In this document: positions 47,031-51,893 of the stretch, piece after piece | How positions within the stretch are numbered: the first letter of the stretch is position 1 | How the letters are laid out: every line of letters starts with the position of its first letter | Source: Planctomycetaceae bacterium | Lineage (GTDB): Bacteria; Planctomycetota; Planctomycetia; Planctomycetales; Planctomycetaceae | DNA length: 64,000 nt | Assembly: GCA_900299185.1 (NCBI GenBank) | Contig: OMIV01000186.1 | Location: 1 to 64,000, forward strand | Direction: 5' to 3' | The notes under the pieces: generated by a model | Database searches by the model: none | The model's input: the letters and a program-made list of their open reading frames with translations, nothing else | What the model was told of the DNA's origin: nothing | Translations under genes and position numbers: made by a program

Positions 47031-48944
47031 CTACTTCTTCTCGTACTCGGCGTCGATCACGTCGTCGCCACCACCGGCTCCGCCTTGTGGGCCGGGGCCG
47101 CCTGCTGGACCGGCGCCTGGTTGAGCACCTGCGCCGCCCGCTCCCTCATACATGTGCTTCGAGAGCGCGTGCATGGCTTGCTCAAGCTCCTCGATTGCCG
47201 ACTTGATTCGACCGAGGTCTTCCGCAGCAACGGCTTCCGTCACCTTCTTGCATGAGTTCTCGATCGCTGACTTCGAGCTGGCATCGAGCTTGTCGGCATG
47301 CTCCTTCAGCAACTTCTCGGCCTCGTAAACCATCGTCGAACCCTTGTTCTTCGATTCGGCCAACTCGCGCTTTGCCTTGTCCTCAGCCGCATGAGCATCA
47401 GCGTCGCGCTTGATGCGCTCGATCTCGTCCTTCGACAGACCGCTGGAGTTCTCGATGCGAACTTGATGCTCTTTGCCCGTTGCCTTGTCCTTGGCCGAGA
47501 CCTTCAGGATGCCGTTCACGTCGATGTCGAACGTCACTTCGATTTGAGGAACTCCGCGCGGAGCTGGCGGGATGCCGGAAAGGTCGAACTGATCGAGCAA
47601 GCGGTTGTCGCGAGCCATCGGTCGTTCGCCCTGGAACACTCTTACGGTGACAGCGTTTTGGTTGTCCGCTGCCGTTGAGAAGGTCTGAGACTTCGTCGTC
47701 GGGATCGTTGTGTTGCGCTCGATGAGAGCTGTCATCACGCCGCCTTCGGTCTCAATACCCAGCGACAGCGGAGTCACGTCCATCAGCACAACGTCGGTGA
47801 CGTCACCAGCGATGATGCCGCCTTGAATCGCCGCGCCGACCGCGACCACTTCGTCCGGATTCACACCCTTGTGTGGCTCCTTACCGAAGATCTTCTTCAC
47901 CATCTCTTGAACTTTGGGCACGCGGGTCGAACCACCGACGAGCACCACTTCATCAATCTGAGACGGACTGAGTTTTGCGTCCTTCAATGCCTTCTCAACC
48001 GGGATGCGGCAACGTTCGATAAGATGATCGACCATGCGTTCGAACTCAGAGCGACTGACCGACATCTGCAAGTGCTTTGCACCAGTTGCGTCAGCGGTGA
48101 TGAACGGCAAGTTGATGTCGGTCGATTGCTGCGAAGAGAGTTCCTTCTTCGCCTTCTCAGCCGCTTCACGCAGACGTTGCAGAGCCATCGCGTCCTTGCG
48201 GAGATCGATGTTGTTTTCTTTCTGGAACTGCGAAGCGATGTGACCAATCAAGACTTCGTCGAAGTCGTCACCACCAAGATGCGTGTCGCCGTTGGTGCTG
48301 AGCACTTCAACCAGTTCGTCGCTGACTTCCAGCACCGAGACGTCGAACGTGCCGCCACCAAGATCGAACACACAGATCTTTTCGTCCTTCTTCTTTTGCA
48401 GACCGTAAGCGAGAGCGGCTGCGGTCGGCTCGTTGATGATGCGGCTAACTTCGAGACCCGCAATCTGACCGGCGTCCTTCGTGGCCTGACGCTGAGCGTC
48501 ATTGAAGTACGCAGGCACGGTGATCACGGCCTTGTTGACCTTGTGGCCGAGATAGCTTTCCGCAGCTTCCTTCAGCTTGCGGAGCACCATCGCCGACACT
48601 TCTGGCGGCGTGTACTGCTTGCCGTTGACTTCGACCTTCACATAGTCCGCCGAGCCGCCGACGACTTTGTACGGAACGATCTTCTCTTCGGACTCAACTT
48701 CAGAATGCCGCCGACCCATGAATCGCTTGATCGAGTAAATCGTGTTGCGTGGGTTTGTGACGGCCTGACGCTTAGCGGGATCGCCAACGATCGTCTCGCC
48801 CTTCTCCGTATAACCGACGACTGACGGAGTCAGCCGGTTGCCATCCAAGTTGGCGATAACCTTCGCTTCCGAGCCTTCCATGATGGCGACCACCGAGTTC
48901 GTGGTGCCCAAGTCGATACCAATAATCTTTTCGCCGGATGCCAT
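47031..48944 (-). CDS. dnaK: Chaperone protein DnaK (Hsp70)
   Basis: This is a 637-residue Hsp70. The ATG at 48944 ([17 protein letters not shown]) has GAGGA at the right distance; the upstream start at 48977 is rejected. The nucleotide-binding domain has [52 protein letters not shown] and LVGGSTRVP. The substrate domain begins after [13 protein letters not shown]-type sequence (here [17 protein letters not shown]). The tail is Gly/Pro-rich and ends [11 protein letters not shown], the usual DnaK terminus. grpE and dnaJ are not adjacent. It is a single-gene unit with its own strong terminator and a candidate sigma-54 promoter upstream. Confidence 0.97.
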
Positions 48945-49022
48945 AATGCTGTTCCTCGAAGGGGTGAAGTTGCCCAACTACGTTTAAGACCAAACCGCAC
49001 TCGGCAAAAGTCATCTCAGAGA

Positions 49023-49042
49023 CGACGGCGACTCCGCCGTCG
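49023..49042 (-). other. GC-rich hairpin in the dnaK leader
   Basis: CGACGGCG (49023-49030) and CGCCGTCG (49035-49042) form an 8-bp stem with a 4-base loop about 80 bases upstream of the dnaK ATG. It falls inside the leader predicted from the sigma-54 site. There is no T-run, so it is more likely an RNA-stability or regulatory structure than a terminator. Confidence 0.45.
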
Positions 49043-49083
49043 CTCTGCCGAAGCGGCCACTGTTGCGGAATGCTTGCTCCACA

Positions 49084-49101
49084 TGGCAACGCCGATGCCA
49101 A
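49084..49101 (-). promoter_or_regulatory. Candidate sigma-54 (-24/-12) promoter of dnaK
   Basis: The minus strand reads TTGGCATCGGCGTTGCC. This matches the sigma-54 consensus TTGGCAC-N5-TTGC at both invariant doublets: GG at 49099-49098 and GC at 49087-49086, with exactly ten bases between. Transcription would start near 49074 and give a leader of about 130 bases. No CIRCE or HAIR heat-shock operator is visible in the region. Function is inferred. Confidence 0.6.
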
Positions 49102-49193
49102 AGCGTTGGGCGATCGTCAAAAATCTTCGAAGCACTGCTAATTTGCAGCGTTTTTTGAGATTCCAAAATCTAGTCGTTCGGCATGTGACTGAA

Positions 49194-49206
49194 TGCCAAA
49201 ATGGCA
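49194..49206. promoter_or_regulatory. Palindrome TGCCA-AAA-TGGCA, possible activator site for dnaK
   Basis: This perfect 5+5 inverted repeat with a 3-base spacer is centred at 49200, about 126 bases upstream of the predicted sigma-54 start. It has the same architecture as the palindrome at 49240-49252. Confidence 0.5.
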
Positions 49207-49239
49207 AGAGTTGGCCGAGCAAGGCTCTGCTAGGGGCAT

Positions 49240-49252
49240 TGCCAGTTTGGCA
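49240..49252. promoter_or_regulatory. Palindrome TGCCA-GTT-TGGCA, second possible activator site for dnaK
   Basis: It has the same half-sites and 3-base spacing as the first palindrome. It is centred at 49246, 46 bases further upstream and about 172 bases from the predicted start. Paired sites at this distance fit a bacterial enhancer-binding protein. Confidence 0.5.
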
Positions 49253-49390
49253 GCCGGGTTCGCCGCAAGCCGTTGCCGACATGGCCGGAGGCTCGTCGAA
49301 GCGAAGTCATTTGGGACCAACTGTGGCGGCGTTGCGACTGGCTGCTTCGCTCGTGTTTGACTGACCGGACTCCGAAGTTGGGCTTTCCAC

Positions 49391-49585
49391 CATTCGTGTT
49401 GATTCTTGAGAGGTAGAGGCTGCTGCATTGCGCCGATTGCAGCCTTAGCGACTTTCTCTGCGTTCTCTGTTTCTCTGTGTTGAAAGAATTACTCACCGCC
49501 GAGCAGCAGAGAACGCAGAGACCTTTCATCAAGACTCGTGGTCAACTGCCGGAAGAACCGACTCTCCGGCATTCGTGTTGATTCT
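49391..49585. repeat. Intergenic repeat element: direct repeats flanking a long inverted repeat
   Basis: A 16-base direct repeat (CATTCGTGTTGATTCT) occurs at 49391-49406 and 49570-49585. Between the copies, TCTCTGCGTTCTCTG (49455-49469) is repeated in perfect inversion at 49507-49521. The phrase resembles dispersed CTCTGCGTTCTCTG-type repeats I recall from environmental bacterial genomes. It lies downstream of dnaX and far upstream of dnaK. The apparent ORFs through it look spurious. Confidence 0.6.
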
Positions 49586-49652
49586 GCGGAAAGATCCTTG
49601 CCCTCCCAACCTTTAGAGGTCTTCACCAGAAATGGCGGAGAGCCCGATGTTG

Positions 49653-51893
49653 TTAGTGGGCTCCGGCGTCGTCCGTTCTAATCGCAGCTCCGAGGATTGG
49701 TTCGACCTTCACGACTTCTGCGGCGAAGACGTTCATCACGTTCGAGACGAACGGATCTTTCTCGGGGTAATAGACGCGAGCGCGAGGTTGCTTAGCGGCT
49801 TCGGCTTTCAATGCTGCAGGCATCGCATCGGGATCGTCATCGCAAGTTGTAATCGAGACCTTCAACGGCACCCCAGCAGCGCGTGAGGCAAGGTCTTCCA
49901 AACGCCGCACGGACTCCAGCTTTTCGCAGTAACGCTTGCTGAATGCGAACTTGGGCGAGAACGCGATCTCGAACTGTCCTGGCCCTGGGTACTTCGCTTT
50001 GAGCACCGCCTTGGCGTGGCTCTTCAGCATGTCGGTGATGTCGGCGAGCACTCGTTGCCACAGCTCATTCGCTGGAGGCAAGTTGGCCATCGAAACTGTG
50101 ACGGCAGGCGTTTCAACAACCGGCTTTTGCTCGGTGATCGTTGCGCGAGGCGGTGTCGGCTGAGGAGTTGGAGTTGGAGTCGGGGCCGGTCGAATGGGCG
50201 TCGCGTCGCGGACGCTGACGTATGGCTCGTCATCCATCGGGAAGTCGTCCGGTGGAGCACCGAATTGAGCCAGAATGTCATCGTCGCTGAGTGCGCCATC
50301 TGAGACTGTCGACGCTGGACTTGGCGTGGAGACAGAAGGCACCACAGGTTTCGCAGGTGGCGGTGCCTCGACAGGTGCTGGGCTGAGCGTTGGTTGTGGT
50401 TCAACGACAACGGGTTCGATCGGTGCGACCGCCGCGACGGGCTCGACTTGTGGAGCAATTGTTACTGGCTCGGGAACTGAACTTGGGACCGGCGGCGATG
50501 CTGATGCAACTGCAACCGAGTCAATGACCGGTGCGGCGGCGTTGCTCGTACCTGCACTTGGAGCTGCAGTCGATTCCACTTTGACCGCCGGCTCTTGGGC
50601 GGTCGGTGCGGCAACTGAAGAGGGCGAGGGCGTCACGACGGTCATTGCTGGTGACGGAGTCGTGGCCTCGTGGACTTCGCCTACGTCATTTTTTTTTTCG
50701 TCCGAGGATGAACTCGGACTGGGCAGAGCCGTCGGTGACTCGGTCGCCTTGAGCGACTCGATTAACGAGTCGAGGCTCTGCATGTTTTCGAGCATCGCGA
50801 TGCGGATGAGTCCTAGTTCGGCGAGTGCTCGACCATAGGTCACTCGCTGCATGCGAGCCTTCGTGTCGCCGAGGATTTGCATCGCCGAGACGATTGTTTG
50901 AAGGCCCCACTTCTTGGCTTGCGTGCTGAGTGCTGTCTTGGCGTTGGACGATACCGCGAGCAGATCCAGTTCGTTCGCTCCGGCGGCAATCACCATCAGA
51001 TCGCGGAGATAAAACAACAATTGGTCGGTCAGCTCGCCGAGTTGCGCGCCGCTATCAAGAGCGGCGTGTAGAGCCTGCAACAACCCCGATGGATTGCGTT
51101 CGACGAGTGTATCGACAATTGCAATCAGTCGTTCGTCGCTGGCTGTTCCCAGCAGGCGATGCACGTCGACCGCCGTGATGTGTTGCTCGCCAAACGCCAG
51201 CAATTGATCGAACAGAGATTGGCTGTCGCGCATGGATCCGGCAGCTCGTCGCGCGACGAGTTCGACGGCGGCGTCATCAACTTGCACGCCCTCCAGTTCA
51301 GCGATTTGTTGCAGTCGCAACTTGATGTTGCCCGTCGCGATCGTGCCGAAGTCGAAGCGTTGGCAACGCGAGAGAATCGTGTCAGGAACTCGATTGGGCT
51401 CGGTGGTACAGAAGACGAACTTCACGCCTGGCGGCGGCTCTTCCAGTGTCTTCAACAGCGCGTTGAAGGCTTCCTTCGTCAGCATGTGAACTTCGTCGAT
51501 GATGTAGACCTTGTATCGTGTCCGCATCGACTTCACGTTGACGCTGGCACGCAGGGCTCGAATCTCGTCGATACCACGATTGGACGCACCGTCGATCTCG
51601 ATCACATCAACGTCGTTGCCCGCCGAGATGCCTCGACAGATTTCACATTCATTGCACGGGTCGCCGTCGACTGCGGTCGGACAGTTGAGGGCCTTGGCGA
51701 GGATGCGTGCGGATGACGTCTTGCCTACTCCGCGAGCGCCGGTGAAAAGGTAAGCATGAGCGACTCGATTCGCGCGAATGGCATTTCGAAGTGCCTGCGA
51801 GATGTGCTCTTGCCCAACGACATCACCAAACGCTTGAGGTCGAAAGCGTCGCGCGAGGACCGTGTATCCCGCACCGGAATTAGGGGCAACCAT
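49653..51893 (-). CDS. dnaX: DNA polymerase III subunit tau (and probably gamma)
   Basis: This is a 746-residue clamp-loader ATPase of the replicative polymerase. Walker [11 protein letters not shown] (about 52-61) is followed by the zinc-binding cysteines (CNECEIC and a preceding Cys), the YIIDEVHML Walker B and the SRCQRF arginine-finger motif. The clamp-loader core ends near residue 377. A long Pro/Ala/Ser/Val-rich linker follows, then a tau-specific C-terminal domain (about 610-735, [20 protein letters not shown]). At residues 399-402 the codons GAA AAA AAA AAT form an A10 run that could yield a gamma product of about 402 residues by slippage. The permease gene lies 85 bases upstream on the same strand. 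Confidence 0.93.
50689..50698 (-). other. A10 slippage site in dnaX, likely to produce the gamma subunit
   Basis: The coding strand reads G-A10-T (GAA AAA AAA AAT GAC GTA). One extra A gives GAA AAA AAA AAA TGA, an immediate stop. One A fewer gives GAA AAA AAA ATG ACG TAG, also a stop. The site is about 20 residues after the clamp-loader core. Thermus thermophilus dnaX uses a similar A-run by transcriptional slippage, and Escherichia coli uses A6G by ribosomal frameshift. I see no obvious stimulatory structure, so transcriptional slippage is the simpler reading. Confidence 0.7.

Follow-up and report, generated by a model that had tools for sequence, protein, structure and literature searches.

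The sigma-32 (RpoH), HrcA/CIRCE and HspR/HAIR systems of heat-shock control have target genes in common with the putative system described herein (dnaK, groESL, clpB and hsp20). The latter differs from them in its predicted sigma factor, in its positive, enhancer-dependent mode of control and in the absence of CIRCE. Sigma-54 requires an AAA+ activator, without which its promoters are silent. Sigma-54 promoters precede single chaperone genes elsewhere, such as groESL3 of Bradyrhizobium (NifA/sigma-54) and ibpB of E. coli; these are isolated genes whose activators have other main roles, whereas the regulon predicted here is the core dnaK/groEL set, served by an activator of its own. The nearest functional parallel is found in Myxococcus xanthus, in which Ueki and Inouye reportedly described, in 2002, the HsfB/HsfA two-component phosphorelay acting on the heat-shock gene lonD. 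HsfA is of the NtrC type. The likeness is one of function, a two-component phosphorelay that activates a heat-shock gene, and the known target of HsfA/HsfB is one protease gene, whereas the system proposed here covers the core chaperone genes through an enhancer that they share. In architecture and working principle the predicted system resembles NtrB/NtrC and AtoS/AtoC, which combine a soluble kinase or kinase core, a REC-AAA+-Fis regulator and paired enhancers upstream of a -24/-12 promoter, but the regulator considered here falls below their equivalog cut-offs and its predicted targets are chaperone genes.

In a PLoS One survey of 2025, sigma-54 promoters were predicted at the genes for DnaK, GroEL, GroES, GrpE, DnaJ and IbpA, with an enrichment of such chaperone predictions in Planctomycetia and Bacteroidota (PMC12316311). 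The promoter class on planctomycete chaperone genes is therefore not new. Activator-to-promoter assignment was not available for all organisms of that survey, and no enhancer motif was given (PMC12316311); the present analysis adds an enhancer and a candidate dedicated activator-kinase pair. Neither enhancer nor activator is described in the open literature found, a scope outside which the work of Studholme and Dixon (2004) on Pirellula activators falls, and the main text of a paper on the Desulfovibrio sigma-54 regulome contains no comparable palindrome. What appears to be new is the enhancer shared among these genes, the logic of the regulon and the two-component activator dedicated to it.

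The dnaK promoter region and its conservation

The window, that is, the whole stretch of 64,000 nucleotides that was analysed, encodes a DnaK protein that scores 992 bits against PRK00290 (cut-off 648) and 955 bits against TIGR02350 (cut-off 823). The gene and the elements predicted upstream of it are:

47031..48944, minus strand: dnaK, 637 aa, the gene under the predicted control, assigned by the NCBIfam DnaK equivalogs PRK00290 and TIGR02350
48945..49074, minus strand: predicted dnaK mRNA leader of about 130 bases, the start being predicted 12 bases past the -12 GC
49101..49085, minus strand: predicted sigma-54 -24/-12 promoter TTGGCATCGGCGTTGCC, from the motif match and corresponding sites in relatives
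49206..49194, minus strand: predicted proximal enhancer palindrome TGCCATTTTGGCA, a TGCCA-N3-TGGCA match kept in the same-genus genome G001
49252..49240, minus strand: predicted distal enhancer palindrome TGCCAAACTGGCA, a TGCCA-N3-TGGCA match likewise kept in G001

An earlier note on this DNA had claimed a promoter with both invariant doublets at the exact -24/-12 spacing, two perfect palindromes at a usual enhancer distance and the absence of CIRCE, and on all three points the sequence bears it out. In TTGGCATCGGCGTTGCC, exactly 10 bases separate GG from GC (GG-N10-GC in a TGGCA/TTGC context) at 142-157 bases upstream of the dnaK ATG (48944), and TTGGCAN6TTGC without mismatch has its single occurrence in the window at this site. 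The two palindromes are 46 bp apart; measured from the start predicted near 49074, their centres lie 126 and 172 bp upstream. Two copies of TGCCA-N3-TGGCA in the window compare with 0.12 expected; across the 7.87 Mb genome there are 15 copies versus 7 for the reversed control, so that single copies are often a matter of chance. The best match to CIRCE (TTAGCACTC-N9-GAGTGCTAA) upstream of this dnaK has 8 mismatches in 18 positions, and at least 5 of 18 positions are mismatched in every dnaK upstream region checked. The HAIR operator was sought by eye only. A consensus scan for sigma-70-type promoters gave no match in 48940-49660, and an Rfam search of the whole window no match either. The predicted leader contains a GACGGCG-GAGT-CGCCGTC hairpin (window 49026-49045); its overall fold (-53.5 kcal/mol) is not unusual, given a z of only -1.3. 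Short purine-rich direct repeats (ACAGAGAAACAGAGAACGCAGAGAAAG) are also present between dnaX and dnaK (window 49445-49530).

Conservation was assessed with a joint score for a GG-N10-GC site plus a TGYCA-N3-TGRCA palindrome 40-280 bp upstream of it. The sample comprised 30 Planctomycetia dnaK loci, that of the source genome and 29 from relatives, and the controls were random 450-bp windows taken from the same group of genomes at loci other than those of chaperones. A joint score of at least 14.25 was reached by 30/30 dnaK upstream regions versus 2 of 2,040 control windows, and 27 of the 30 exceed the highest control window, in a test that is not blind because the scoring was designed after looking at Planctomycetia dnaK regions. 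For the rest of the phylum together with five same-family genomes, about 40 of 59 further dnaK upstream regions beat all 60 of their dinucleotide shuffles, and about one quarter of those outside Planctomycetia are without a clear site. Conservation of the -24/-12 site in relatives, which had been set beforehand as a test of the claim, was thus found throughout the class sample and in most of the phylum. The promoter in relatives takes the form TGGCAC-N5-TTGC or TGGCACG-N3-TTCGC. Both dnaK palindromes have survived the divergence of the intergenic DNA within the genus, in G001 as TGTCATTTTGGCA (proximal) and TGCCAATTTGGCA (distal). A DNA search with the dnaK upstream region gave no match in relatives because conservation is limited to short motifs. 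In family f48, the dnaK upstream regions of G126 and G144 have neither palindrome nor -24/-12 site; these two genomes, as well as G087 and G108, retain orthologs of the regulator and kinase discussed below, together with a divergent dnaK (about 55% identity).

A regulator family beside dnaK

The source genome encodes sigma-54 itself (rpoN; PF04552 at G000:C139, 204 bits), as do all 34 near-complete relatives, and about 16 full-length candidates for its activators. Two of these, L077 and L080, are general across eight Planctomycetia genomes, and L084 and L085 less completely so. The gene immediately upstream of dnaK in small genomes from distant families encodes an activator, with L077 as its closest counterpart. 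A profile of the L077 family (A1) was run on 109 Planctomycetota genomes, and the positions were compared by hand with the dnaK coordinates, counting genes on the dnaK strand within 900 bp upstream. Such a regulator gene immediately precedes dnaK in 32 of the 109 genomes, from 18 families, often in the order histidine kinase, regulator, dnaK. At some loci outside the class the gap between regulator and dnaK is only 67-113 bp, which suggests co-transcription. In a tree, all 13 dnaK-adjacent copies tested and the Planctomycetia orthologs of L077, including that of the source genome (G000:C199), form one group with a support of 100 and no other activator inside.

L077 consists of a REC domain (PF00072), an AAA+ domain (PF00158) with the GAFTGA motif and a Fis-type HTH (PF02954). 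It scores below all the NCBIfam equivalog cut-offs listed (NtrC 439/559, AtoC 411/714 and ZraR 383/760 bits); it is predicted to work like NtrC but is not classed as an NtrC equivalog. The kinases scanned have about 240-275 residues, with HisKA and HATPase_c as their only domains and no recognisable sensor domain. The ortholog in the source genome, at G000:C293, has 260 aa; its 302 bits at 58% identity compare with about 100 bits for the runner-up. The regulator gene of this genome adjoins neither dnaK nor the kinase gene, and no autoregulatory palindromes were found before the genes of L077 and L080.

From adjacency, orthology and the tree, an L077-family two-component regulator can be assigned as the candidate activator of dnaK. 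The earlier proposal that an unrecognised activator links dnaK to sigma-54 is largely supported, with conserved sites and a candidate regulator, and the predicted control is not confined to dnaK. The activators L080, L084 and L085 were ranked below L077, none of them having been found beside dnaK. L080 and its orthologs (L161, L166, L169, L171, L179, L203 and L207) represent a universal PspF-like activator without an N-terminal domain, often encoded upstream of a cytochrome c assembly or hemA-type gene; in the source genome it reads GAFTNA in place of GAFTGA. A further activator gene, L086, whose product has a CARF-like N-terminal part, begins about 700 bp downstream of a perfect TGCCAAAATGGCA (L001 1501-1513, G000:C35), and the product of the gene after it has a possible nucleotide-binding NTPase part; the locus looks like defence. 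Autoregulation of L086 through this palindrome (C35:7616) was ruled out, given the distance to the gene start and the lack of an L086 ortholog in the genomes compared.

Chaperone genes with the same motifs

Among the 15 palindromes of the source genome are the two at dnaK, a third that precedes groES (L007) by about 270 bp and a fourth before hsp20 (L005). The groEL2-groES2-groEL-dnaJ cluster (L463) carries TGTCACGATGGCA followed by a textbook TTGGCACATGCCTTGCA. The joint-score threshold is reached by 17 of 26 groES upstream regions, with TGGCACG-N3-TTCGC as the characteristic form. In five more genomes, exact intergenic palindromes with a sigma-54 site precede dnaK, groES-groEL, groEL2, hsp20 and clpB, while those inside genes show no chaperone pattern. 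Pairs of palindromes 45 bp apart recur at dnaK (G010 and G019), hsp20 (G019) and clpB (G005). The last genome also contains two identical stretches (L103 and L113) with palindromes 24 bp apart and without a chaperone gene; this looks like a segment that was duplicated or is mobile. Random scatter of the palindromes, named in the earlier note as a ground for rejecting its claim, is not what was found, as intergenic copies precede chaperone genes. The search that it proposed, for the same sites at groESL, clpB and other chaperone genes, found the arrangement also at groES-groEL, groEL2, hsp20 and, in relatives, clpB. The predicted target set is almost purely composed of chaperones.

A composite DNA pattern, TGCCANNNTGGCAN{80,110}TGGCACNNNNNTTGC, was scanned across 84,980 bacterial and archaeal species genomes, a stretch being counted as preceding a chaperone gene when the gene start lay within 900 bp downstream. 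At least 117 stretches match; 80 among the 117 matches listed precede chaperone genes (DnaK 34, GroEL type 35, Hsp20 8, ClpB 2 and GroES 1), and the named records among the matches listed are mostly Planctomycetota. Chaperone matches outside this phylum, again among the matches listed, belong to Bacteroidaceae (1), Poribacteria (3), Gemmatimonadetes (2) and Puniceicoccales (1). In these other-phylum records (L402, L349, L359, L399, L346, L413 and L342) the pattern precedes dnaK, groES, clpB or hsp20, and the regulator gene was not found within the loci. Most of the listed matches without a chaperone gene belong to Proteobacteria and other phyla and often fall within coding sequence, as expected by chance.

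Proposed control and its alternatives

Sequence comparison establishes the predicted promoter and enhancers, their conservation, their co-occurrence with chaperone genes, the genes of the factors and the adjacency of regulator and dnaK. On these grounds it is highly probable that dnaK and the cytosolic chaperone operons are under sigma-54, through a pair of kinase and NtrC-type regulator acting from paired enhancers. Against this weigh the two f48 dnaK regions that lack the sites although f48 keeps both proteins, the quarter of regions outside the class that show no clear site, the separate positions of dnaK, regulator and kinase genes in the source genome, the design of the score after inspection of the class sequences, and the loci of other phyla, in which no regulator gene was found. 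Stress would activate the soluble minimal histidine kinase (HisKA and HATPase_c), which would phosphorylate the NtrC-type regulator (REC, AAA+, Fis-type HTH). The phosphorylated regulator would assemble as oligomers on the paired TGCCA-N3-TGGCA sites 126 and 172 bp upstream, and DNA looping would bring it to the sigma-54 polymerase at 49101-49085, where ATP hydrolysis would open the complex. The same regulator would drive groES-groEL, groEL2-groES2-groEL-dnaJ and hsp20, and clpB in relatives; with one regulator over several chaperone operons, this would amount to a sigma-54 heat-shock regulon. In this planctomycete and in most of its phylum, control by sigma-54 and a conserved kinase/activator pair would appear to replace the sigma factor or repressor that usually governs heat shock.

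Heat or misfolded protein would be the trigger. In R. baltica, dnaK, groEL, clpB and hsp20 are heat-induced, regulation of rpoH, rpoE and rpoN was not seen, and the cascade was concluded to differ (PMC2754498); induction of chaperones with rpoN not seen regulated fits control through the activity of an activator. A regulon that is real and answers to another signal (growth arrest, envelope or redox stress), with heat induction arising from an additional promoter or system, is unlikely. The kinase without a recognisable sensor domain would suit it, as would the many ECF sigma factors and two-component systems of R. baltica that respond to stress (PMC2754498), but the targets are almost purely chaperones that are heat-induced in that organism (PMC2754498), and the dnaK upstream region has no sigma-70-type match to serve as the additional promoter. 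It is quite improbable that promoter and enhancers are genuine and served by a different activator, be it the PspF-like L080 (beside ccsA/hemA-type genes), the REC-AAA+-Fis protein L084 or the FHA-GAF protein L085. L080 matches L077 in universality across the eight genomes of the class, with L084 and L085 close behind, and no candidate activator lies beside dnaK in the source genome; however, the L077 family occurs beside dnaK in 32/109 genomes and the other three families were not found in that position, and the altered GAFTNA of L080 in the source genome also speaks against it.

The palindrome could also be a repressor operator, with dnaK repressor-controlled as under HrcA and the -24/-12 match a by-product of TGGCA half-sites. 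Both half-site words do occur inside the promoter match of the window, where TGGCA-N7-TGCCA also forms an inverted pair, but the promoters of relatives (TGGCAC-N5-TTGC or TGGCACG-N3-TTCGC) are not palindromic, the palindromes, at about 40-280 bp upstream, are distant from the start, and the linkage to a gene for a GAFTGA activator and the absence of CIRCE point the same way, which makes this reading very improbable. Practically no weight is left for coincidental motifs in a GC-rich intergenic region: single TGCCA-N3-TGGCA copies indeed outnumber the reversed control by a factor of only about two, but chance is already refuted by conservation, and the enrichment at targets counts against it as well.

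For the two-component sigma-54 regulon preferred here, sensing through a chaperone or through the kinase core is plausible, given a sensorless kinase, and the operon of kinase, regulator and dnaK points to direct feedback. It is possible, though as yet doubtful, that a sensorless soluble kinase and an NtrC-type activator on sigma-54 govern the core heat-shock response in most Planctomycetota and in part of the Poribacteria, Gemmatimonadota, Verrucomicrobiota and Bacteroidota, the pair reading chaperone occupancy directly, in such a way that free DnaK or GroEL keeps it inactive. If true, this would be another major bacterial heat-shock architecture beside the sigma-32 and repressor systems. The analysis offers an account of the planctomycete heat-shock switch that is specific and can be tested, naming the genes, a single DNA motif and the expected targets. 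The motif pair predicts the same regulon in other phyla as well as in named species such as Blastopirellula marina and Kuenenia, and the core chaperone set would thereby be placed under an enhancer-dependent and probably phosphorylation-controlled system.
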